From Pirellulales bacterium (lineage in GTDB: Bacteria; Planctomycetota; Planctomycetia; Pirellulales; JAEUIK01), in the NCBI GenBank assembly GCA_019745975.1, contig JAIESQ010000107.1, positions 1 to 56,802 on the forward strand: a stretch of 56,802 nucleotides of DNA, written 5' to 3'. A program made the translations under genes and the position numbers. The notes beneath the pieces were generated by a model. It was given only the letters and a program-made list of their open reading frames with translations. It did no database searches and was not told where the DNA came from. Below, piece after piece: positions 1,740 to 14,000 of the stretch (positions within the stretch are counted from its first letter, which is position 1; each line of letters opens with the position of its first letter).

Positions 1740-4112
1740 TCAAATGCCCACAAGGCTTCGCTCACAACACAGCGCACAAGGGGAGAATTCGGAGTTAGCG
1801 ACGATTGTCGGCCGCTTCGCTTCGGAAGAAGCCCCGCTTTGCAACTTGCCTGTCGCTTTCGTCGTCTTGATGCCTCGAGCCAAGGCACGACCCAAGGGAC
1901 CTGCCAGCAGCGCTGGCAGCAGGAACAAGTTCACAACGAGCCCCACCGACAGCAGTGAGATCATCAACAAGCCGAATCGCCGCGTTGGAGTGAAGTCGCT
2001 CCAGGCGAAGACGCTCAGTCCCAGGCCGATCACGCCCCAACTTTGCAGCATCGCCCGGGCGCAGTTGCCGTAGGCGATGCGGAGGGATTGCTGGCGATCC
2101 AGGCCTTGTGCCAGCCCGCGACGGAACCAAAGGACGAAATGCAGCACGTCATCCACGGTAACGCCCAAGGCTACGCTCGGCGCCAGGACACTACCAATGT
2201 CGAGCACGATCCCCATCCAGCCCATCAGGCCCAGGACGGTTAGTACCGGGACCACGCTGGTTAGTAACAACACCAAACCGACCGACCAGTGTCGTATCAA
2301 CACCACGATTGCGACGACGATTAAAGCCAGGTCGGTCGCGAGCCCGATGATGAGGCCCTCCAGGAGCGACTGTTGAGCCCGTTCGATCAATGGCACCATG
2401 CCCGTCAAGGATGCCGATATGCCGTCGCGGTCACCCTGCGCTTTGAGCACCTGGTCAACGCGTCGCTTAACCGCGTCCATAACGTGGCGCCGATCCACAC
2501 CGCGAAACGAATTCGTCCGCAGACTGATCCGCCACACCTCTGTGTCGTTGGCCGTGGCGAGGAATCCCATGCTCACCAGGCGGTCGCGGTGGTGTTCCAG
2601 CCGGCGATTGAGGACCGAGCGTTTGAGCGACCACTGGCCGTCGCCGGCGGCGGGCAAACGCGGACAAAACGTGACCGCCGAAACGCTCGTCCCCACTCCG
2701 TCGAGCGTCGCGACACTCTGTTGCACGCTTTCGATCAGTTTCAACCGTTCGAGCATGTTAAGCTGGCACTCGGGGGCGATGCGCACGATCAATTCCATCG
2801 GCACGATTCCGCCCATGTGGTCTTCGAGCCAGTGAGCATTTTTGGGGTACGCGGCGTCGTCTGAGAAGAACTCTTCGGCCGTCACCGATGTCCTGACACG
2901 GGACAAGCCCAATCCGCACGAGACCGCTAACGCGAGGACCGTCACAGCAACCCGTCCGGGCCGATCGGTGATGAACCGCCCCCAAGACCACCAGTTTGCC
3001 CGCGTGAAAGTTGAAGGCGCAGTACGTGGCTTCTCGCTTGCCGACAGCGGCAGCCAAAGTGCACAGCCTAAGGGCAGAACGACAAGGAGCCACACCAGCG
3101 ACGCCAAGACTCCGATGGCCGAGTAGAGCCCGAACTGTCGGATCGGCAATAAATCGCTGCCGCACAACGAGAGCAGTCCGAGTGCTGTCGTTCCCGTGGC
3201 GAGCGCCAAAGGAAGACGAGCGTGGGCAACCGTTTTTTCGATCGCCCCAGCCGTTCCGTGGTCGGCGACGGCGTCGCGATAATAGTTCGCCCAGTGGATG
3301 GCGCCCGACATGGTTGAAACGTAAACCAGCGGTGGCATTGTTACGAGGACAGCGTTCATCTCGCCGCCGGAAAACCAGACCGTGGCCAGTGCCGCGGCCG
3401 CCGCGAAGACGCCGACCACAACCACCAAGATCGTTAACCGCAGACTGCGGAAGCAAATCCAGGAGAAAACTACCGCCGTCGCCACGGACAGCAGCCCGAG
3501 AACATTTAGCGACGCGTTCGCGGCTTCGTCTACCGACACCGACGTGACCAGCGGCCCGCCGGTGCGCACGGCGTTCCGCGGGACGCCACATTCCTCGGCG
3601 GTATTGTAAATCGTCTTCAGCAAGCTCTGGGGGTCGTGCTTGCCATGTTCGCTCGGACGCACCACGGCACAAGATTGTCGACCATCAGGCCCAATCGCGA
3701 ACCCGCGCAGGCGGGCGATTGCTTCGTCGCGCGTGAGATTGATCGGCGGCGACATCAGCTCTTTAATGGCTTCCGGAGTCGTGAGCACCCCTTCGACAAG
3801 CGAAGAGCCGCTGTCCCGCTCGGACCCGCCTGCCGACGGCTTGAGGCGCTCCGCCAGGACTTGGAGCCGTGGGTCGTCGACCGTACAGCCTTCCCAACTG
3901 ACGACGACAAATTCCTCAGTCCCAAAGTACCGACCAAAACGGGCGTATTCGATTGTCTCGGGTAACCCTTGCGGCAGCCAGGTGCGCACGTCGTTGGCGT
4001 TCGTCCGCATCGCCTTGGCTGCACCGAGGACCACTAGCGGCGCCAAGCACACAAATACCGCCAGCAGCGGATATCGATATCGTTCGTAGAACCGGGCCTT
4101 CATAGTTTGCAT
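1740..4112 (-). CDS. MMPL/RND-superfamily exporter
   Basis: A 790-aa inner-membrane protein of the COG1033/MMPL type (hopanoid- and lipid-transport RND relatives). It has the twofold RND layout: one N-terminal helix, a large periplasmic loop, then a helix bundle (about residues 205-350), followed by a second helix, loop and bundle (about 385-760). The second half carries VTVDDVLHF, the acidic helix typical of the family. The matching place in the first half reads STMSGAIHWANYY and lacks the acid. ATG at 4112 and ATG at 4103 are both possible. It is last in the run SRPBCC, ketosynthase, ThDP enzyme, MMPL, 82 bp after the ThDP gene, which suggests it exports a hydrophobic product of that operon. 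The cargo is inference. Confidence 0.85.
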   Translation of the reverse strand: MQTMKARFYERYRYPLLAVFVCLAPLVVLGAAKAMRTNANDVRTWLPQGLPETIEYARFGRYFGTEEFVVVSWEGCTVDDPRLQVLAERLKPSAGGSERDSGSSLVEGVLTTPEAIKELMSPPINLTRDEAIARLRGFAIGPDGRQSCAVVRPSEHGKHDPQSLLKTIYNTAEECGVPRNAVRTGGPLVTSVSVDEAANASLNVLGLLSVATAVVFSWICFRSLRLTILVVVVGVFAAAAALATVWFSGGEMNAVLVTMPPLVYVSTMSGAIHWANYYRDAVADHGTAGAIEKTVAHARLPLALATGTTALGLLSLCGSDLLPIRQFGLYSAIGVLASLVWLLVVLPLGCALWLPLSASEKPRTAPSTFTRANWWSWGRFITDRPGRVAVTVLALAVSCGLGLSRVRTSVTAEEFFSDDAAYPKNAHWLEDHMGGIVPMELIVRIAPECQLNMLERLKLIESVQQSVATLDGVGTSVSAVTFCPRLPAAGDGQWSLKRSVLNRRLEHHRDRLVSMGFLATANDTEVWRISLRTNSFRGVDRRHVMDAVKRRVDQVLKAQGDRDGISASLTGMVPLIERAQQSLLEGLIIGLATDLALIVVAIVVLIRHWSVGLVLLLTSVVPVLTVLGLMGWMGIVLDIGSVLAPSVALGVTVDDVLHFVLWFRRGLAQGLDRQQSLRIAYGNCARAMLQSWGVIGLGLSVFAWSDFTPTRRFGLLMISLLSVGLVVNLFLLPALLAGPLGRALARGIKTTKATGKLQSGASSEAKRPTIVANSEFSPCALCCERSLVGI

Positions 4113-4194
4113 CCAATGACAATCGATATGGGCCAGAGCATGCGGTAGGTCATTAAGCCGTCTGCGCCCTTGAATTCGCTCTGAGAGGCGCGGG

Positions 4195-5958
4195 CTACGC
4201 TCCCACGAAGGGGGCGGCGTCGTAGGTTGGAGCGTCGCTCGCTAGGAATGGTGTAAATGGCGGAATCTGCTCGCGCTCCAAACGCAGCTCGAGCACGCCT
4301 GGGCCGTCGGCCATTGCTTGGTAATCTGCTAGGCACCCGGTGAGTTCTTCAGTGGAGCCGGCCGAGCCCACCCAAAGCTGATCGTGGCTACCGAGGCCAC
4401 GCGCGAGTTCGGAGACGGAGATGGCAGGGTACTGTGAGCCTTCGATGCGGCCGCCGAAGTAAAGCTGTTGTCGGGTGACACACATGCCGTGCATGCCGTT
4501 GTTGAAGACGACAAACAAGACGGGCAATCGGTAGTGCACGGCAGTATTGACCTCGGCTCCCGACATCAGGAATGCCCCGTCACCACAAAAGACGATCGTG
4601 CGCGCGCCGCGCGGGGATCCCAATTGAGCGCCTACAGCGGCGGAAATGGCGTATCCCATTCCCCCCATCCCCAAGGCGCAGGTAGCACTGACGGTTCGAG
4701 GGATCCGCAGATAGTGCAGGGCGGCCGCGGCGCAGTTGCCGGCGTCGAACAGGACGTGTCCAGACGTCGGCAGAAATTGCTGCAGGACTTCGAGCGCGTC
4801 GCTTTGCAGCAGTCCGTCGCACCAATCATCTTGACGCGAGCTGAACTCGTCTGGGGAGAAGCGGGGAGCCAACTGGGGCACGAAGCGCGCGAGCCGTGCT
4901 TTGCTCACGACCCGTGGTTCGAGCGCAACCTGATCGCAGATTTGGTTCAGCTTTGCGAACACCGCGCCAGCATCAGCCTCGATGTGCAATGCCGGGGTCA
5001 CCACGCGCAGCACTTCGCCTACGTCGATATTCACGACAGCCAGCCGCTCAGGTCGCAGAGCCTGCTGAATGGGTTGGGTCGTCATCATGTTCAATCCCGT
5101 ACCCACCGCAACGATGAGGTCAGCCTCCTCTTGCAAGTAACGATGGGCCGACGGTTCGCCCGCCATGCCCACCATTCCCAAGTAGAGCGGGTCGTCGTTG
5201 GGGAAGGAGCTTTTGCTGGAAAGCGTCGTGGCCACGCGCATCCCAACGCGCCGGGCAAATTCGACGACCGCCTCCGGATTGCCGCAACGGTCGACGCCGC
5301 TGCCGACGAGCAGGACGGGAGTGTTCGCCGCCTGGATGGCGTCAAACAGTTCGCGGACCTTCTCGTCGCAAACATCACGCGCGATCTTCAGCTCGTCGAG
5401 TTGGTAAGGCAGACTGCCGGGTCGATTGCCGACCTCGCAGTCGAACAAGTCGCGAGGAATCAGCAGCACCGAGGGCCCTGGCCGGCCGCTCAGGGCTTCG
5501 CGCACGGCCGACTCGAGGCAAGGCCAAAACTTGCTGGGCTCATCAATGACCGCCCGATATTTCGAGATCGCCGACCAGAGCTTGTCGGCGTTGACGGTGC
5601 GGCCGATGCCGGAAGAGTCTTGAAACGCTCCCCTGCCCGCGAAACTCGCTGGCGGCTGACCAACAATGGCGAGCATCGGTACCGATTCGGCAAACGCCTC
5701 GGCGACACCCACGGCCAGGTTCATCATCCCGCCGCCAGAAGTGGCACAACAAACGCCTAGTGTGCGATGCACTCGTGCTCGGCAGTCGGCCATGAACGCC
5801 GCGCCGATTTCGGACTTGGCGGCCACGACTCGAAAGCGTCCTTCGCCGAGGCGATGGACGGCGTCGTAGAAATGTTCGATGTTGGCCCCGCCGACGCCAA
5901 AAGCGTACTGCAGGCCCCAGTCACGCAGCGTCGTTACGAGCGAATCGGCTAATGTCAT
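4195..5958 (-). CDS. ThDP-dependent carboligase/decarboxylase, acetolactate-synthase-like
   Basis: A 587-aa thiamine-diphosphate enzyme with all three domains. The pyrimidine domain (about 4-170) has the ThDP-activating Glu in AAKSEIGAAF and a CATSGGG turn. The central domain spans about 195-335. The PP domain (about 380-545) has the cofactor motif starting at GDGAF and ending at NN 27 residues later. Family members decarboxylate 2-oxo acids and often ligate the acyl anion to a second carbonyl. No regulatory subunit gene is near, so it is unlikely to be the housekeeping branched-chain enzyme. The chosen ATG has AGGGA about nine bases upstream; an in-frame TTG at 6015 is weaker. It follows the ketosynthase in the same operon. 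The substrate cannot be read from sequence. Confidence 0.87.
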   Translation of the reverse strand: MTLADSLVTTLRDWGLQYAFGVGGANIEHFYDAVHRLGEGRFRVVAAKSEIGAAFMADCRARVHRTLGVCCATSGGGMMNLAVGVAEAFAESVPMLAIVGQPPASFAGRGAFQDSSGIGRTVNADKLWSAISKYRAVIDEPSKFWPCLESAVREALSGRPGPSVLLIPRDLFDCEVGNRPGSLPYQLDELKIARDVCDEKVRELFDAIQAANTPVLLVGSGVDRCGNPEAVVEFARRVGMRVATTLSSKSSFPNDDPLYLGMVGMAGEPSAHRYLQEEADLIVAVGTGLNMMTTQPIQQALRPERLAVVNIDVGEVLRVVTPALHIEADAGAVFAKLNQICDQVALEPRVVSKARLARFVPQLAPRFSPDEFSSRQDDWCDGLLQSDALEVLQQFLPTSGHVLFDAGNCAAAALHYLRIPRTVSATCALGMGGMGYAISAAVGAQLGSPRGARTIVFCGDGAFLMSGAEVNTAVHYRLPVLFVVFNNGMHGMCVTRQQLYFGGRIEGSQYPAISVSELARGLGSHDQLWVGSAGSTEELTGCLADYQAMADGPGVLELRLEREQIPPFTPFLASDAPTYDAAPFVGA

Positions 5959-6027
5959 GGTGGTGCTTCCCTGACCTGCGAGGTCGAGATTCCTTGAAGA
6001 CGCTTGGGCGTCCAAGAAGCTGACCGT

Positions 6028-7029
6028 CTACTGAGGCCTCCAATGGATCACGGCGGCGGCAGCGAAGTCTCCCGCGTGAGCGAATCCGCCCAGCACCAGG
6101 TGACTGTTCGCCTGCAACTGGCCGCTGTCGATCGCTTCCGCAAGACACAGCGGGAGCGCGGCGCCAAACAAATTGCCATGTCGCTCGAAAGTCGAGACAT
6201 GCCTTGTCGGCGGCAACTGCAGTGCCTCGCGCCAGTTTCGCAGGAAGATACGGTTGGGCTGGTTGGTGATCAGCGTGCCGATCTGGTCGGTTGGCAAATT
6301 CGCTTGGCGGCAAGCCTCACGAATGGCTTCCGGCACGATGTGATTTGCCCGACCCATGATCTGGGCCAGCTTCGCTTCGGTGAAATCGACATAGCTGCAG
6401 GCCGTGCTCGGCTCCCACCACTCGCTGCCATCGTGGCGCACGATCGCCATGTCCCCCGCGTATTCGCAGTAATTTCGCTGGACGATCGACTTGATTGGCG
6501 ATTCGTTCGAAGCGACCAGATATCCCACGCCACATCCGTCGCCAGGGATCAGCGCTTGCTTCAGCTTTCGGGTTTCGTCCTGGGCGAAGAGACGCCCCGC
6601 GGAGTTCTGGACATTACATAGGAGCGCGGTCTTGGCACCGCTGTGACTCATCAGCGCCTGTGCTTGTGCGATCATGGCAATGAACGACACGCAGCCGCCA
6701 TTGTGCAAATCGAGGATCCATTCGGGCCGGCAACCAAGGGCCTTGCCAACGGCGGCCCCGCAGCCCATGAACGGCTGGTCGGGCGCCGTGACGTTGGTCA
6801 TCAGGATGTCGACGTCGTTGTGCAAGTCGAGGTTCAAGCGGTCCGCCAGCTTCTGCGTGGCTTGGACGATCATCGACTGTGCCGTCTCATCACGTGCCAC
6901 ATGGTGCCGCTGTTTCACTCCGCGGAACATGGCGTGTGCCGGCGCTTCATCGGAATGCTGAAAGAAACTGTTATCGACGACACGCGCCGGTAGATAACTT
7001 GCGGCGCTGACCAGGCTGACGGTCTTCAC
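6028..7029 (-). CDS. FabH/KAS III-like condensing enzyme lacking the catalytic His
   Basis: A 333-aa thiolase-fold protein of normal KAS III length. The nucleophile is Cys in LHNGGCVSFIA (near residue 117). The block equivalent to FabH PHQAN reads TNQPN, so the catalytic His is Asn. The second Asn is kept in ERHGNLFGAALP, matching FabH RHGNTSAA. In FabH the His and Asn promote decarboxylative condensation. Losing the His while keeping Cys suggests altered chemistry, such as simple acyl transfer or a non-decarboxylative reaction (inference). The start is GTG, overlapping the upstream SRPBCC stop as GTGA with GGAGG upstream, so the two are translationally coupled. It is the second gene of the SRPBCC-KAS-ThDP-MMPL run. 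Confidence 0.88.
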   Translation of the reverse strand: MKTVSLVSAASYLPARVVDNSFFQHSDEAPAHAMFRGVKQRHHVARDETAQSMIVQATQKLADRLNLDLHNDVDILMTNVTAPDQPFMGCGAAVGKALGCRPEWILDLHNGGCVSFIAMIAQAQALMSHSGAKTALLCNVQNSAGRLFAQDETRKLKQALIPGDGCGVGYLVASNESPIKSIVQRNYCEYAGDMAIVRHDGSEWWEPSTACSYVDFTEAKLAQIMGRANHIVPEAIREACRQANLPTDQIGTLITNQPNRIFLRNWREALQLPPTRHVSTFERHGNLFGAALPLCLAEAIDSGQLQANSHLVLGGFAHAGDFAAAAVIHWRPQ

Positions 7030-7667
7030 TGGGGGCCTCCGATCGTCATCGGCAATCCGTTGGCGTGCCGGTGTTCAAGGATGTACTTGAGGTTGTCCAG
7101 CTCGATCTGATGTCCGGCGTAGAAGAATGGCCACATGTCCCCCACCCAGACCTTGCGTCCTGGTGGGGATTTTTCCGGGAAGGGATTGCGATCGTAGAAC
7201 GGATGCCGGCAATTGGTCCAAAGCACGACACAGCCGGGCCGGTCGAACACGAGCTGGGCTGGTACCACGCGCATCAGGTAAATCATCCACAAGTGTTCGC
7301 CTTGGTCCCAAGCGCAGTGGAAGTCGACGGTCATGGCCTGGCGATTGGCGACGGTGCGCGTGTAGATCTTCGTCGCGCCGCCAATCCGGTCGGTGGCGAC
7401 GACCATGCCGTCGTCAGATGCTGTCGTGAAGTCGCGCAGGCTGTACGTCCATTCCTGCAGCGTGTACACGTCGGACAGGTATTCGAAGGCCTTCTCCGCT
7501 GGACAGTCGACGTATGCCTGAATCGAGCAGTACTGTCCGTAGACTTGATCGTGTGCGTAGACCGCGTGGGTCATTTCCATCGCCAGGCTGGTCATCTCCT
7601 CTTTGCCGCAATTCTCAATGCGATGGACGCCAGGTAGCTGGTCGATGGCCGACAGGTCCGCCTTCAT
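7026..7667 (-). CDS. SRPBCC-family protein (polyketide cyclase/START-like)
   Basis: About 213 aa. After a short N-terminal segment, residues from about 38 read VYGQYCSIQAYVDCPAEKAF, then EYLSDVYTLQEWTYSL. This is the strand-helix opening of the helix-grip (SRPBCC) fold: a hydrophobic pocket that binds lipids or aromatic and polyketide intermediates. Such proteins beside ketosynthases often act as cyclases or aromatases, but others only bind lipids. The ATG at 7667 is chosen because GGAGGG ends nine bases before it; the ATG at 7676 sits directly on that site. It leads the operon, and its last four bases overlap the ketosynthase start. Confidence 0.75.
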   Translation of the reverse strand: MKADLSAIDQLPGVHRIENCGKEEMTSLAMEMTHAVYAHDQVYGQYCSIQAYVDCPAEKAFEYLSDVYTLQEWTYSLRDFTTASDDGMVVATDRIGGATKIYTRTVANRQAMTVDFHCAWDQGEHLWMIYLMRVVPAQLVFDRPGCVVLWTNCRHPFYDRNPFPEKSPPGRKVWVGDMWPFFYAGHQIELDNLKYILEHRHANGLPMTIGGPQ

Positions 7668-7682: not shown

Positions 7683-7903
7683 GTTGTCTGATGGCCAGCG
7701 AGGCCGTTGTGATCGGGCGGTCAATCCATCGTGTGCGCTCATGCACACATGCTCTTGATGGATGCCCTTCCCAATCCGTAGCGCAAGAGCTTTGGATTTG
7801 TGACGGGGATTTCCGGCAAATCACGCCTGATTCGCCTGAAATGTCCCGCCCACCGGCGGAAACCGAGACACGACGAGGGGCTGCTAGCGCGGTGCCTGGC
7901 ACT

Positions 7904-8079: not shown

Positions 8080-9423
8080 TCAGACGAGCTCAGGTAGAGG
8101 CGGTTGATCGACCAGATACTGTGGTCGGCCCGCGGGGTCCTGGATGGTCGTTGTCGAGGTATCGAGACCCAGATTGTGGTAGAGCGTGGCCACGATTTCT
8201 TGCATGTGAACCGGGCGATTGACGGCATACTCCCCCAGGCGGTTCGTGGAGCCAATCGCCTGGCCCGTCCTCATCCCGCCCCCGGCCAAGAGCGCGCAAC
8301 TGACCTGCGGCCAATGGTCGCGACCCGCATCGCCATTGATACGCGGCGTGCGACCAAATTCACCCCAGGCGATGACGGTCACGTCGTCTAACATGCCACG
8401 GCTGTCGAGGTCTTCGATCAGAGCGCTAAACCCCTGGTCCAACTTCGAACCGTGATCGCGCACCAGGTCGAAATTCGCGCCGTGACTGTCCCAGCGTCCA
8501 TAGGTAAGCGTCACGCATCGCACCCCCGCCTCGACAAGTCGGCGCGCGATCAGCAACTGCTCGTTGCAAGTGGGCGCGCCGTCATACTGGTAGTTGTAGG
8601 GCTTGCCGTCTCCATACCGTTCGCGCAGCTTGGGATCCTCGGTCGCAAGATCAAGCGCCTTCAGCAGCCGACTCGACGTCAAGACGTCGAACGCCCGCTC
8701 CGTATACGAATCGAACGCGCGCGTCTTGCCGGTTGTGTCGACGACTTCGCGATAGGCGTCGAAGCTGGACCGTAGCAGCTTGCGATCGTTGAGCCTCTCG
8801 AGCGAAAGGCCGTTGAGCCTCATGTTCTCCATACCCGGGCCGTCGGGCTGGAATGGCGCAAAGGTTGGCCCAAGAAATCCCGGCTGCCCTGGATCCTTCC
8901 ACACGCCGGCATTGGCCAGACCGACGAACGGCGGAACGGCGCGGTCGGCCGGACCTTGCAGTTTCGCAGCCGCTGCTCCCAAGCAGGGTCGACCACCAAT
9001 CGACGGCAGGCTCTCGCGCGTCCAACCGGTATGGCACTGATAGGGTTCATGCGCATGCGCAGCTCCCACGACCGAGCGAATCACGGCGCACTTGTCCATG
9101 ATCGCAGCGATGCGGGGAAACACCTCGCAGATTTGAATCCCAGGCACTTTGGTGGAGATCGGCTGGAATTCGCCGCGAATCTCTTTGGGCGCCTCGCTCT
9201 TGATTTCCCACATGTCCTGATGGGGAGGGCCGCCGCCGAGGAAAATGTGAATGACCGATTTGTGGCGCGCGCGACCGTCGGCCTGTGTCTCGGCGCGAAG
9301 CAGATCGGTCAACGTGAGCGCTCCGGCTCCCATGCCCAGCGCGCCGATTCTCAGAAAACTGCGCCGCGAAACGCGATCACAGAGCCGATGGCTACGGCCG
9401 AAGATGGTGAGCATGATTTTCAA
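8080..9423 (-). CDS. DUF1501 domain protein, Tat-exported
   Basis: A 447-aa protein of the DUF1501 family, an alkaline-phosphatase/sulfatase-superfamily relative abundant in planctomycetes and without a settled activity. The N-terminus has a twin-arginine signal (SRRSFLRIGALGMG, about residues 20-33). Conserved family blocks are visible: FLGGGPPHQDMWE near 62, GRWDSHG near 317, WGEFGRTPRI near 362, and GRDHWP soon after. Unlike the DUF1501 gene at 30174, it has no DUF1549/DUF1553 partner. It lies 201 bp downstream of the amidohydrolase gene, with nothing recognisable in that gap, so it may be a separate unit. The export inference rests on the RR motif followed by a hydrophobic stretch. Confidence 0.9.
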   Translation of the reverse strand: MKIMLTIFGRSHRLCDRVSRRSFLRIGALGMGAGALTLTDLLRAETQADGRARHKSVIHIFLGGGPPHQDMWEIKSEAPKEIRGEFQPISTKVPGIQICEVFPRIAAIMDKCAVIRSVVGAAHAHEPYQCHTGWTRESLPSIGGRPCLGAAAAKLQGPADRAVPPFVGLANAGVWKDPGQPGFLGPTFAPFQPDGPGMENMRLNGLSLERLNDRKLLRSSFDAYREVVDTTGKTRAFDSYTERAFDVLTSSRLLKALDLATEDPKLRERYGDGKPYNYQYDGAPTCNEQLLIARRLVEAGVRCVTLTYGRWDSHGANFDLVRDHGSKLDQGFSALIEDLDSRGMLDDVTVIAWGEFGRTPRINGDAGRDHWPQVSCALLAGGGMRTGQAIGSTNRLGEYAVNRPVHMQEIVATLYHNLGLDTSTTTIQDPAGRPQYLVDQPPLPELV

Positions 9424-9624
9424 CCACTAGCTCTGCCGTACTGCTTCACATCAACACCTGCTTACGTTATCTGACTTCGTGTCAATTGGCAATGCAAACT
9501 GTCATTCTCACGTGCTCAAAATAATGGACTGTCCGCTCGCGACGCATTCACTCGGTCACGCGCTAAAGCAATCGACGACCTGGCCCGACGTGCAGACTCG
9601 CGCGACTGGAAAGGATTCCGCAGC

Positions 9625-11106
9625 CTACCGCAGTGCGGCGCGGATTGCTTTGCCTGGCGCGACCGTCTTTTCCAATTGGCCATCTTTGACGATGGGAGTT
9701 CCGCCAACCAGTACGAGCCGAAAACCAGCGGAGAATTTCGCCGGCTGTTCGAACGTCGATTGGTCGATGACTGCTTGTGGGTCGAACACGACGAGGTCCG
9801 CGTCGGCGCCGATTTGTAAGCGGCCTTTGTTCTTCATGGCCGGCACCCGGCGTTCCAGTCGCTGCGCCGGCATGATGGTCATCTTTCGAATGGCCTCCAT
9901 CCAGGTGAGTGCCTGTTGTTCGCGGACATAACGTCCAAGTACGCGCGCGTAAGTACCCGAGCCGCGCGGGTGGCCTCGGCCGTTGTCGAGTAGTCCGTCG
10001 CTGGCAATCATCGTCAGCGGGCTGGCCACCGTATCGCGGACCATTGGCTCCGGCATCGAATGTATGATGACGTAGCCGCCAACTTCTCGATAGCGTGCGA
10101 AGCTCTCGGCGGTCAACCGCTCGCCCGTGGCCACCCATTGCAAATCGCCGTAGCTCACTCCCAGGGCATTCTGCCAGCCTTCGTCGAAAATGGCCGATCG
10201 AATTGGACTCATCGAAGCCGTGTACGGGTAGCATTCGGTGGTGACATCCAAACCGCGCGACTGGGCTTCGGCGATCGCTTGCAGCAGTCGCGGTGTGCCG
10301 CGCAATCCCATGCTGGATACGTGAACGATATGCAAAGGCGCGCCGGTAATCGAGGCCGCCGCCACGACCTCCTCCAGCGCAGCCAGCGCGCTTTGCGGTT
10401 CTTTCTCGCCGGCGTGACGAATGTGGACGTGACAGGGCGCCTCGTGCTTGGCAGCCGCGCGAAAAACCTCCAAGATCTCCCAGCGCGAAACACCAGGCGT
10501 GTATTGGATTCCCAAGCCTACGGCCACGGCGCCGCGCTCGAGGCCAGCTTCGACGAGGCGCCTGATCTGATGGATTTGCGAATCGGTGGCCTCGTTCTGC
10601 GCGGCTCCTGGCTCGGGCAGCCACTTGCCCGGTCCTCCCAGCACACGCATGCGCGCGCCGATGTGCCCTGAGCTAACGCCGTAATTGATGAGCGATTTTC
10701 CCTGTCGCTGCACGTACCAGTCGTCGACATCGGGCGTGCCCACCTCCAGTTCGAGGGCCGTCGTGACTCCATCCATCGCCTTATAGCGATAGTTCTCTTC
10801 GTCTTGCCCGTGCGAGTGCAAGTCGATGAAACCAGGCGCCACGATCATGCCACGCGCGTCGAATCTGAGGAGTGCGTCTAGGCGATCCTCACTGATGACG
10901 CGAATGGACCTGCCTTGAACACCCACATTCCGCACGGCGTCCAATCCGCTCGCCGGATCGATAACGCGACCGCCTTCAATGACTAGGTCGTATCGGGCGG
11001 GGAGAGCAGGCTCGGCAGCAATCGCCATGAGGGACGAGGCGAGAACCGCGCAGCATGTGATTGCGCGTGCGAGTATGTGTCGGAAGAATTCCGCGTGGGA
11101 TGTCAA
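9625..11106 (-). CDS. Secreted D-aminoacylase-type amidohydrolase
   Basis: A 493-aa protein with an N-terminal signal segment (ITCCAVLASSLMAIAAE). It then shows the amidohydrolase composite fold: YDLVIEGGRVIDPASG at about 39, the metal-binding DLHSHG near 98, HVHIRHAGE near 228, HIVHVSS near 257, and a closing GADADLVVFDP. This pattern fits the N-acyl-D-amino-acid deacylase/dihydroorotase-like branch. Family enzymes cleave N-acyl or cyclic amides, and the substrate here is unknown. The start is only 6 bp after the stop of the DUF1501 gene at 11113-12609, so the two are almost certainly cotranscribed. A secreted location matches its Tat-exported neighbours. Confidence 0.88.
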   Translation of the reverse strand: MTSHAEFFRHILARAITCCAVLASSLMAIAAEPALPARYDLVIEGGRVIDPASGLDAVRNVGVQGRSIRVISEDRLDALLRFDARGMIVAPGFIDLHSHGQDEENYRYKAMDGVTTALELEVGTPDVDDWYVQRQGKSLINYGVSSGHIGARMRVLGGPGKWLPEPGAAQNEATDSQIHQIRRLVEAGLERGAVAVGLGIQYTPGVSRWEILEVFRAAAKHEAPCHVHIRHAGEKEPQSALAALEEVVAAASITGAPLHIVHVSSMGLRGTPRLLQAIAEAQSRGLDVTTECYPYTASMSPIRSAIFDEGWQNALGVSYGDLQWVATGERLTAESFARYREVGGYVIIHSMPEPMVRDTVASPLTMIASDGLLDNGRGHPRGSGTYARVLGRYVREQQALTWMEAIRKMTIMPAQRLERRVPAMKNKGRLQIGADADLVVFDPQAVIDQSTFEQPAKFSAGFRLVLVGGTPIVKDGQLEKTVAPGKAIRAALR

Positions 11107-11112
11107 TCGAGA

Positions 11113-12609
11113 TCACCCTGTACACAACAGTTCTGGCACGACCGTGCCGCCGTTGAGGACGGGGATCGGTCGACCCGCAAAGTCGTTGAACTCCAGTCCC
11201 GCGGTCGCGACTCCCAAGTGCCGATAGACCGTCGCCAGGAAATCATGCACGCCGATCCGCCGTTCGACGACTTGCTCGCCGCGGCGGTCGGTTGCGCCGA
11301 TCACCTGCCCCGTCGCGATGCCGCCACCGGCAAACAGCATGCTCGTGGCGTTGGGCCAATGGTCGCGACCCGGCTGCATGACACCGCTGGCGCTGTCGGC
11401 CGCATACGAGATGCGCGGCGTGCGGCCGAACTCGCCAGTCACGATCAACAGCACGCGACGGTCCAAGCCGCGGTCGTACAAGTCTTCGACCAACGCGGCG
11501 ATGGCCTGATCGAAGGCCGGCGCGCGCGCTTGCATGGCATTGAACACGTGATGGTTAACGGCATGATCATCCCAGTTTTGCACGCGACCGCAGATGGGGC
11601 CCAGCAGCGACGTGGTCACCAGGTCGACACCGTGTTCGACCAGCCGGCGAGCCAGCAGGCATTGCTGCCCCCAGGTGTTTCGGCCGTAGCGATCGCGCGT
11701 TCGCGGGTCTTCGCGATCGAGGTCGAACGCTTCCTCGGCGGTGGACGAGGTGAGCATGTTTAATGCTAGTCCTTCGTAGCGATCGATCGAACGCATGTTG
11801 CCGGTGCGATCGAGATCACGGCGCAATAGATCCATTTGGCGGCGCAAGCCGAGGCGTCCGCCCAGGCGTTGTTGCTCGGTGTGGGCCGCCAGGTTGGGGA
11901 TGCTGAACTCCGCCGCGTTCGGGTCGCCTGACACGGCAAACGGTTCGTACGCGGCTCCGAGATACGCCGCGCCGAGATAGGGGATTGGCTGCACGCCGAT
12001 GTAGTTGGGCAGCAGGCGCTCTTGCTGTTGCCGGAGGCAGTTGGTGATCGACAGAAACTCTGGGTACTCAGACCGTGGCTTGAATTCACGGACTTCCTGC
12101 CCGGTGAACATCTGCTGCTGGCCGATGCCGTGGCAAAAACCAGAATGCACGAGAGACCGCACGAGTGTGAACTTATCGGCGATCTGAGCATGCCGCGGCA
12201 GCAGCTCGCAGAGATTAAGACCAGGTACGGCGGTGGGGATAGCGGCGAACGGCCCACGGTATTCGGCCGGCGCGTCGGGCTTGGGGTCGTAGGTCTCCAA
12301 GTGGCTGGCGCCGCCATGCAAGAACACGACGATTACTGCCGTGGCGGATCGATCGGCGCTCGGCTTGGGAGCATCCACAGAGTTTTCGGCGGACCGGGCG
12401 CGAAGCGCGAGTAGTTGTGGCAGCGACAGACTGGCGATCCCGGCCAGACCCACGCGCAGGAACTCGCGACGGCGTACGGTGCCCGCCCCGCGAGACGGTG
12501 GAACGCACGCGAGATTCGCGTCGCCATCTAATCGACTTTGTGACGCAAGCATCCGCATCGTCGATCCAGTCGGGCTATTCGCTGGCGCAGTCGCGCCACC
12601 GAGTGTCAT
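11113..12609 (-). CDS. DUF1501 domain protein, Tat-exported (second copy)
   Basis: About 498 aa. The frame stays open to 12849, but the ATG at 12609 overlaps the upstream gene's stop by one base as TGATG, the classic coupled arrangement. From there the protein reads MTLGGATAPANS, then a Tat motif RRREFLRVGLAG near residue 49. Family blocks follow: FLHGGASHLETYDPK, LLARRLVEHG, GEFGRTPRIS and GRDHWPNA. The protein is exported and probably periplasmic. It shares an operon with another DUF1501 gene upstream and the amidohydrolase downstream, and has no DUF1549/1553 partner. Confidence 0.9.
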   Translation of the reverse strand: MTLGGATAPANSPTGSTMRMLASQSRLDGDANLACVPPSRGAGTVRRREFLRVGLAGIASLSLPQLLALRARSAENSVDAPKPSADRSATAVIVVFLHGGASHLETYDPKPDAPAEYRGPFAAIPTAVPGLNLCELLPRHAQIADKFTLVRSLVHSGFCHGIGQQQMFTGQEVREFKPRSEYPEFLSITNCLRQQQERLLPNYIGVQPIPYLGAAYLGAAYEPFAVSGDPNAAEFSIPNLAAHTEQQRLGGRLGLRRQMDLLRRDLDRTGNMRSIDRYEGLALNMLTSSTAEEAFDLDREDPRTRDRYGRNTWGQQCLLARRLVEHGVDLVTTSLLGPICGRVQNWDDHAVNHHVFNAMQARAPAFDQAIAALVEDLYDRGLDRRVLLIVTGEFGRTPRISYAADSASGVMQPGRDHWPNATSMLFAGGGIATGQVIGATDRRGEQVVERRIGVHDFLATVYRHLGVATAGLEFNDFAGRPIPVLNGGTVVPELLCTG

Positions 12610-14000
12610 CAACCGCTCGCAAACAACTTGGCAATCGGCCTTCCTTCGTTCAACCGCAGCGGGCGGCCAAAGGAATCGTGAATCGTGGTCGCCGGGTCGA
12701 CTCCCAGCGCCGCGTAGATCGTGGCTCCCAAATCCGCTGGGCTGAAGGACTCGGTTACGGGGTAAGCGCCAATTGCATCCGACGCACCTATTGCCTGTCC
12801 TCCGACAACTCCCCCGCCGGCAAACACGGCCGAAAAACAACTCGACCAATGTCCGCGACCATCCGGCCAGAATTTGCCGTCTTGGTAGTCGCCGATCTTC
12901 GGAGTACGGCCGAACTCACCGGCTACGACAACCAGGGTTTCGTCCAGCAGCCGACGCTCAACCAGTTCGTCGAGCAGGGCGGCCAACGCCTGATCGAGCT
13001 GCGGCAATAACCGCTTCTTCAACGGGCCCGCGTTGTCGTAGTGTGTGTCCCACTCGGTGGCATGCCCCAGGTTCGCCTGGATGACCGGCACGCCAGCCTC
13101 GACGAGTCGACGCGCGAGCAGCAACGACTGGCCATACAAATGACTGCCGTAGCGATCCTTGGTGTGCGTCGTTTCGTCTTCGAGCGATAACGCCGCTGCC
13201 ACGCGGTTCGAGGCGAGCATCTCCATCGCCCGCACGCGATACACGGCATAGGCAGCCGTCTCATTCGAAGCCTCGGCGGCCGCAGCGAACCGATCAACCA
13301 ATTCTAGCAAATTTCGCCGCGCTTCGAAGCGCCGCCCCAGTTGGTCGGCCCGCAGGCTGAGTCCATCGATGCCAAACTCACCTCGGCCCGGATCATGCTC
13401 GATCTGCAAGGGATCGTGCCGAGCGCCGAGGAAGCCTGCGGTTGTACCCGACACAGGAATGACACCGTTTCTCAGAGTGCTAGGGAGACACACTCCCGAC
13501 GGCACGCCATCGTTGCGAGGCCGAAGATGATCGAGCGCTGCGGCATAACAGGGCCAGTCGCCGCGCGAGGGCACCCCGCGAAAGCCGATCGGAACCGTGT
13601 TGATCCCGCAGGGGACAAAGCAAACTGCGTCGTGATGCGGCAGTGCGTGTGCCATCGAACGCACGATCGCCAGGTGTTGCGTGCGAGCGGCCAGTCGCGG
13701 CAGATGTTCGCATAGCGCGATTCCCGGCACCGCGGTGTCGATCGCACGAAACTGCCCACGGACTTCTGCTGGCGCCTCGGGCTTGGGGTCGAAGCTGTCG
13801 AGGTGGCTGGGCCCACCGGGAAGAAACACGAGCACTACCGTGCGCACGGAGGGCCGGGGCGCTCGGACCGACGGCTTTCCAATTGCGCGTCCGGCCAGCA
13901 GACTGGGAAGCCCGAGCCCCAGCAAAGTCGAACAACCGAGTTGCAACGCTTCGCGGCGTGCCATTCGCGGCCGTTCGATCACCGCACGTTGCACAGTCAT
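12609..14000 (-). CDS. DUF1501 domain protein (first of operon)
   Basis: A 463-aa DUF1501 protein. Its N-terminus carries ARREALQLGCSTLLGLG, a Tat-like signal in which the RR is followed by E rather than the usual F/L pattern. Conserved blocks include FLPGGPSHLDSFDPKPEAP near 60, LLARRLVEAGVPVIQ near 298, AGEFGRTPKIGD near 365, and a GRGHW variant of the usual GRDHW. It heads a tight operon with a second DUF1501 (TGATG overlap) and the amidohydrolase. About 160 bp separate it from the flavoprotein gene upstream, which may hold the promoter. The biochemical role of the family is unsettled. Confidence 0.9.
   Translation of the reverse strand: MTVQRAVIERPRMARREALQLGCSTLLGLGLPSLLAGRAIGKPSVRAPRPSVRTVVLVFLPGGPSHLDSFDPKPEAPAEVRGQFRAIDTAVPGIALCEHLPRLAARTQHLAIVRSMAHALPHHDAVCFVPCGINTVPIGFRGVPSRGDWPCYAAALDHLRPRNDGVPSGVCLPSTLRNGVIPVSGTTAGFLGARHDPLQIEHDPGRGEFGIDGLSLRADQLGRRFEARRNLLELVDRFAAAAEASNETAAYAVYRVRAMEMLASNRVAAALSLEDETTHTKDRYGSHLYGQSLLLARRLVEAGVPVIQANLGHATEWDTHYDNAGPLKKRLLPQLDQALAALLDELVERRLLDETLVVVAGEFGRTPKIGDYQDGKFWPDGRGHWSSCFSAVFAGGGVVGGQAIGASDAIGAYPVTESFSPADLGATIYAALGVDPATTIHDSFGRPLRLNEGRPIAKLFASG

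Follow-up and report, generated by a model that had tools for sequence, protein, structure and literature searches.

The 56,802-nucleotide contig JAIESQ010000107.1 of a Pirellulales bacterium (GenBank assembly GCA_019745975.1), called the window here, carries a compact operon encoding an SRPBCC/Bet v1-fold protein, an enzyme resembling ketoacyl-acyl carrier protein (ACP) synthase III (KASIII), a thiamine diphosphate (ThDP)-dependent carboligase, and an MMPL transporter of the resistance-nodulation-division (RND) type, which together are likely to make and export a carbazole-type indole alkaloid. The SRPBCC protein is homologous to the carbazole synthase CqsB2, and the predicted product of the operon is an exported, probably alkylated carbazole. 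The family membership, linkage, and active-site residues of the three enzymes were computed, and are presented below before the reactions that they would catalyze.

In Streptomyces, according to a review (PMC7466098), the carbazole skeleton is built by the trio CqsB1/B2/B3, in which the ThDP enzyme CqsB3 couples indole-3-pyruvate with pyruvate, the KASIII-like CqsB1 condenses the CqsB3 product with 3-hydroxybutyryl-ACP, and CqsB2 then closes the ring, FabD and a phosphopantetheinyl transferase being recruited from primary metabolism. A homologous enzyme set is present in a chlorinated-carbazole cluster (PMC10100901). The statement of an earlier note on this DNA, that no described pathway has this exact gene set, therefore has to be withdrawn, as the three-enzyme core has been published for bacterial carbazoles in both of these sources. 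The route sketched in that note was right in presuming a single pathway that involves acyl binding to a Cys, ThDP-dependent carbon-carbon joining, shaping by the SRPBCC protein and probable export, but its order of steps and its acyloin or diketone product have to give way to the published order, i.e., acyloin formation by the ThDP enzyme, condensation by the KASIII, and cyclization by the SRPBCC protein, with an aromatic carbazole as the end product (PMC7466098). In comparison with the carquinostatin (cqsB1-B2-B3) and neocarazostatin (nzsJ-I-H) loci of Streptomyces, the same three enzyme families are linked in the window, in the order cyclase-KASIII-ThDP and with the MMPL transporter in addition.

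The SRPBCC protein gave no Pfam match; nevertheless, its family assignment is clear from sequence and structure matches to CqsB2. In the phmmer search of PDB sequences, CqsB2 (6ipv) was the sole significant match (E 9.5e-52; the other listed match had E 1.2), and the AlphaFold model (mean predicted local distance difference test score, pLDDT, of 79.5, with poorly predicted stretches at 35-45 and 156-158) had 6ipv_A as its best structural match (Z 18.0, 42% identity, 165 residues; next row Z 12.9). The active site of CqsB2 includes Glu105, Tyr144, Tyr172, His206, and Glu209 (PMC7466098), and in the alignment, which covers most of the length of the protein, the window cyclase has Asp, Tyr, Tyr, His, and Glu at these positions, four of the five being identical. 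Glu105 is a proposed helper of proton abstraction (PMC7466098); as its replacement by Asp is conservative and its role merely proposed, we treat the change as a variant feature which leaves the homology in place. The identity with the Streptomyces cyclases amounts to 41-44%.

For the KASIII and ThDP comparisons, the Streptomyces locus L081 was used as a reference, since its cyclase shows no difference from CqsB2 across the compared 209 aa and its gene order is KASIII-cyclase-ThDP, which allows the neighbouring enzymes to represent CqsB1 and CqsB3. The phylogenetic analysis placed the window KASIII and the KASIII proteins of Streptomyces Cqs loci in one clade (22 rows, support 100/100), apart from Escherichia coli FabH, the CqsB5-type second KASIII of Streptomyces, and two KASIII proteins of the same planctomycete genome. 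The window enzyme is thus related to CqsB1 but lacks the catalytic His of the reference rows: its triad is Cys113-Asn256-Asn286, where the Streptomyces core has Cys-His-Asn, and the earlier description of an unusual ketosynthase holds in this respect. A classical KASIII (FabH) was rejected both on the triad and on the FabH model NF006829 (109.6 bits against a 249-bit cut-off). The predicted structure (pLDDT 90.7) has an ordinary thiolase fold, with a template modelling score of 0.85 to Burkholderia FabH.

The ThDP enzyme is the part of the trio most similar to its Streptomyces counterparts, being 53% identical to the ThDP enzymes of four Streptomyces loci, 33-36% identical to the mycobacterial ones over long matches, and 29% identical to its best-matching paralogue within the same genome. 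It is related to CqsB3/NzsH, falling into a Cqs-like clade of 22 rows that is separated from ilvI, ilvB, and gcl with 100/100 support. In a broader tree the Cqs-like rows stayed together (99/98) and an acetolactate synthase (ALS)-like paralogue of the own genome (L005) joined ilvB/ilvI; another paralogue (L006) attaches to the base of the Cqs-like rows (88/85), but its branch is very long and drew a program warning of a possible artefact. A biosynthetic ALS was rejected, as the window enzyme falls outside ilvI, ilvB, and the ALS of its own genome, and scores 260.8 bits with the model TIGR00118 (cut-off 538.35 bits). Grouping with acetolactate synthases, which in the earlier note would have spoken against a dedicated pathway, was thus not found, and the carboligase indeed has no adjacent ALS regulatory subunit, its gene neighbours being those of the KASIII and the MMPL transporter. 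The GDG...NN motif is present, as is a Glu within the stretch KSEIGAA, which we take to be the catalytic residue, and the PDB matches include BbmA and CsmA. The trees lean toward a mosaic origin of the operon (ThDP enzyme Streptomyces-like, KASIII and cyclase Mycobacteriales-like), but approximately unbiased tests failed to reject the congruent alternatives (p 0.0909 and 0.375; further tests 0.126 and 0.087), and a mosaic origin is therefore not claimed.

The linkage of the three genes was analyzed in 81 loci, i.e., 75 from a genome scan, which was seeded on the cyclase and is a mycobacteria-dominated, non-random sample, and six plasmid loci. The 75 scan loci comprised 61 of Mycobacterium/Mycolicibacterium, six of Nocardia, four of Streptomyces, one of Aquabacterium, and three without a genus name (one of them a planctomycete). 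Loci were regarded as linked when cyclase, KASIII, and ThDP matches lay within 6 kb on one strand, a match indicating homology and not necessarily an intact gene. The trio was linked in 74 of the 81 loci, in the orders ThDP-cyclase-KASIII (66), KASIII-cyclase-ThDP (5), cyclase-KASIII-ThDP (2), and cyclase-ThDP-KASIII (1). Among the unlinked loci, three (L056, L084, and L085) have the match at the edge of the stretch examined, three (L020, L052, and L060) are lone cyclases with neither KASIII nor ThDP match within 6 kb, and the last one (L103, a plasmid of Nocardia sp. NBC_01327) has its KASIII match about 5 kb away on the other strand. The KASIII match is fragmented in L067 and L100. We also observed that the KASIII of L103 (22-2120) adjoins an aminotransferase gene, on the strand opposite to the cyclase and ThDP genes, that L020 contains a second cyclase copy some 8-10 kb away from the first and adjacent to a ThDP gene, and that in L067 of Mycobacterium lepraemurium (8474-11469) both the ThDP and the KASIII genes match only in pieces, resembling a decaying cluster.

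The co-occurrence proposed as a check in the earlier note is therefore found for the trio, and the full four-gene order recurs in a second planctomycete (L115); these two results together place the linkage beyond chance. Generic family names alone would also fit an accidental row of housekeeping neighbours (FabH, acetolactate synthase, and a lipid-binding protein), an explanation which the trees, the conserved linkage in the 74 loci and L115, and the occurrence of distinct KASIII-like and ALS-like genes at other genomic sites leave with a negligible probability. The conserved KASIII also bears on a scytonemin-type acyloin pathway, in which the KASIII would be secondary. Scytonemin ScyA and ScyC are a ThDP enzyme and a cyclase, and a weak ScyC match was recorded (22.7 bits, E 5.4e-05); this score is far under the curated 400-bit cut-off and is to be set against the E value obtained with CqsB2, and the present trio includes a KASIII, linked in nearly all loci, so we consider this pathway very improbable.

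The trios of Mycobacterium, Mycolicibacterium, Nocardia, Rhodococcus, and Tsukamurella consist of the same three families, with cyclases 49-64% identical to that of the window (full-length rows), but mostly in the ThDP-cyclase-KASIII order, with the more distant ThDP enzymes mentioned above, and with no match to the window MMPL transporter. An extracytoplasmic function (ECF) sigma/anti-sigma pair was found near the trio in 36 of the 81 loci, including L015, L017, and L019 (recounted by tblastn); the sigma factor matches the NCBIfam model PRK09645 above its cut-off, and the anti-sigma match is weak and below cut-off. This pair presumably corresponds in kind to sigL/rslA, a redox-responsive pair. 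Other mycobacterial neighbour families were not used, because the greedy calling of open reading frames (ORFs) often picked wrong frames in these GC-rich loci. The core of the Aquabacterium metagenome-assembled genome (L014, betaproteobacterial) is accompanied by a divergent AraC-type regulator gene.

Active-site signatures were read from 73 KASIII and 73 cyclase rows, the window included, after short and stop-containing rows had been dropped (six KASIII and four cyclase loci). The KASIII triad was Cys-Asn-Asn in 65 rows, Cys-His-Asn in seven, and Gly-Asn-Asn in one (L066); all seven Cys-His-Asn rows come from Streptomyces loci, four of them lying beside the cyclase and three being FabH-type. 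The five cyclase residues were DYYHE in 68 rows, EYYHE in four (Streptomyces), and DYHHE in one (the second cyclase of L020, with His for Tyr172), so that Asp replaces Glu105 in 69/69 non-Streptomyces rows and Glu is retained in 4/4 Streptomyces rows. For the plasmid loci the reading covered four of six (L100 and L103 excluded): those of Tsukamurella, Nocardia farcinica, and Rhodococcus opacus have Asn and Asp, and that of Embleya (Streptomycetaceae) has His and Glu. The planctomycete loci L115 and L117 have Asn and Asp as well. Asn and Asp were thus present in every examined row outside Streptomycetaceae, a clade difference that is new; as both changes coincide with the same clade boundary, they are counted as a single inherited difference and not as many. 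This difference suggests a ring-A chemistry or an acyl substrate other than that of carquinostatin.

Besides the window, three other planctomycete operons (L115, L011, and L117) have the core in the same order, with different flanking genes. All four genes of L115 are colinear with those of the window (identities of 82, 82, 76, and 69%). In L011, the core is preceded by a gene of an outer-membrane efflux protein and followed by genes of HlyD, two FtsX permeases, and an ABC ATPase, and in L117 it is followed by genes of an O-methyltransferase and a cytochrome P450, as might be expected if an aromatic product were methylated and hydroxylated. Given the same core order and the differing companions, the core appears to be a unit to which exporters and tailoring genes were added separately. 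Single-sequence searches of planctomycete genomes retrieved the own genome alone (KASIII, 1/392 at 1e-40; cyclase, 1/392 and 1/146 at 1e-8), and a profile search, the own genome included, gave 2/396 in the order and 3/397 in the class, these samples having been drawn differently and overlapping, and the profile match G932 lying on the same contig as L011.

By analogy with Streptomyces, the following sequence of steps from keto acid to ring closure may be proposed. An aminotransferase encoded elsewhere would convert tryptophan into indole-3-pyruvate, which the ThDP enzyme would use; the KASIII-like enzyme would load an acyl group from ACP or CoA onto Cys113 and condense it, with loss of CO2, with the acid product of the ThDP step; and the SRPBCC protein would close and aromatize the unstable condensation product, giving the third ring. 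The MMPL transporter, which is the likely exporter, would then release the product, probably alkyl-chained. Its assignment is deduced from gene position and from the comparison with other planctomycetes, since the L115 transporter occupies the same operon place and is 69% identical to that of the window, compared with 47% for an MMPL paralogue elsewhere in the own genome. The hopanoid RND transporter HpnN was rejected as a candidate (69.6 bits against a curated 751.85).

Several observations weigh against a carbazole-producing and -exporting operon. The KASIII is merely 27% identical to the L081 enzyme (27-28% across the Streptomyces loci), and both its triad His and Glu105 of the cyclase are altered, the latter to Asp, so the reaction may differ. 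In contrast to the Streptomyces clusters, no linked supply genes were found, i.e., neither the ACP family PF00550 nor the aminotransferase family PF00155 gave a match on the window contig, with 28 and 19 matches, respectively, in the rest of the genome, and the contig has no second, classical KASIII, others being encoded elsewhere. The use of indole-3-pyruvate is assumed from homology, and no assigned product was seen for any member outside Streptomycetaceae. Moreover, MMPL relatives occur in 76 of 117 planctomycete genomes at 1e-100 (own genome included), and nothing within the 19.9 kb of the L117 operon matched the window MMPL.

Because this family is so common, the mere presence of an MMPL gene says little, and its link with the core depends on its position and on the 69% versus 47% identity. 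The trio could thus make a carbazole beside an ordinary planctomycete RND transporter which lies downstream and serves another purpose, in line with the 76 genomes and with the absence of window-MMPL matches at 1e-10 from all 75 scanned loci; the counterpart of L115 in the same place and the different exporter around the same core in L011 make this rather unlikely. Alternatively, the same chemistry might act on phenylpyruvate or 4-hydroxyphenylpyruvate, yielding an aromatic of the naphthalene or phenol type rather than a carbazole. The active-site changes and the moderate identities of cyclase and KASIII leave room for this, and Pfam annotation of the neighbours showed no tryptophan-specific gene beside the operon. 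However, the choice of keto acid falls to the ThDP enzyme, the component closest to its Streptomyces counterparts, and in a plasmid of Tsukamurella tyrosinosolvens (L099) a TrpB-like gene (12021-13319) is found one gene away from the trio, so another keto acid seems a poorer, distinctly improbable choice. The same stretch of L099 ends with a gene of the styrene/indole monooxygenase family. A carbazole is the more likely product of the window operon.

According to the review, the machinery for mono-oxygenated carbazoles is still to be identified, lipocarbazoles are listed among the 3-oxygenated carbazoles, and their source, as given in the title of its reference 7, is Tsukamurella pseudospumae (PMC7466098). 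The 3-oxygenated lipocarbazoles are taken here to be that mono-oxygenated class. A Tsukamurella species bears a trio of the window's clade, which is a link at the genus level and not one from gene to product. Lipocarbazoles carry a lipid tail, and such a product would fit a lipid-type exporter. We may speculate, with considerable doubt, that the Asn/Asp trios, which occur in Planctomycetota, Mycobacteriales, and a betaproteobacterium, represent a second carbazole synthase system making exported, mono-oxygenated, lipid-tailed carbazoles (antioxidants of the lipocarbazole kind), the two changes diverting ring-A aromatization from the ortho-quinone route and so supplying the missing machinery.

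In our searches of open-licence PubMed Central literature, among the matches listed, carbazole core genes were described in Streptomyces and none in planctomycetes or mycobacteria, and nothing was found on lipocarbazole genes. Within that literature, the carbazole core of Streptomyces is known and the operon variant with the altered active-site signature is new. If the assignment is correct, the pathway also exists in many mycobacteria and nocardias and in some planctomycetes, with a distinct signature, and a redox-active exported metabolite, possibly relevant to oxidative stress, would be predicted in two groups. With its four genes, the planctomycete operon is compact and can be expressed directly, and it makes the origin of ring A in mono-oxygenated carbazoles, an open point of the review, testable.

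The ORF check of the window confirmed the four open minus-strand genes in the order SRPBCC, KASIII-like, ThDP, and MMPL (Table 1). The spacing described in the earlier note was reproduced by the coordinates: the GTG start of the KASIII gene overlaps the cyclase stop by four bases (GTGA), and the gaps are 69 bases between the KASIII and ThDP genes and 82 bases between the ThDP and MMPL genes. The Pfam domains found were ACP_syn_III_C in the KASIII, TPP_enzyme N/M/C in the ThDP enzyme, and MMPL in the transporter.

Table 1. Genes of the operon and codons of the discussed active-site residues (positions in the window).
Feature	Position	Strand	Details
SRPBCC/Bet v1-fold cyclase, CqsB2 homologue	7026..7667	-	ATG at 7667, stop ends at 7026, 213 aa
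Alternative cyclase start	in-frame GTG at 7748	-	possible start
Codon of Asp in place of CqsB2 Glu105	7389..7391	-	alignment
KASIII-like condensing enzyme, CqsB1/NzsJ kind	6028..7029	-	GTG start, 333 aa
Codon of catalytic Cys113	6691..6693	-	alignment, position checked
Codon of Asn256 in place of catalytic His	6262..6264	-	alignment (TNQPN vs HQAN)
Codon of catalytic Asn286	6172..6174	-	alignment
ThDP-dependent carboligase, CqsB3/NzsH kind	4195..5958	-	ATG at 5958, stop ends at 4195, 587 aa
MMPL/RND transporter, likely exporter	1740..4112	-	PF03176, position

The G+C content of the operon region (0.60-0.62) is on the low side of the range of the window (0.60-0.66) and does not stand out. The operon is flanked upstream by a DUF1501 gene (8080-9423) and, on the other side, by a convergent plus-strand gene (25-1722) encoding a neutral/alkaline ceramidase-like protein (PF04734). 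At the contig end, positions 1-200 consist of two 100-base tandem copies with 96% matches.

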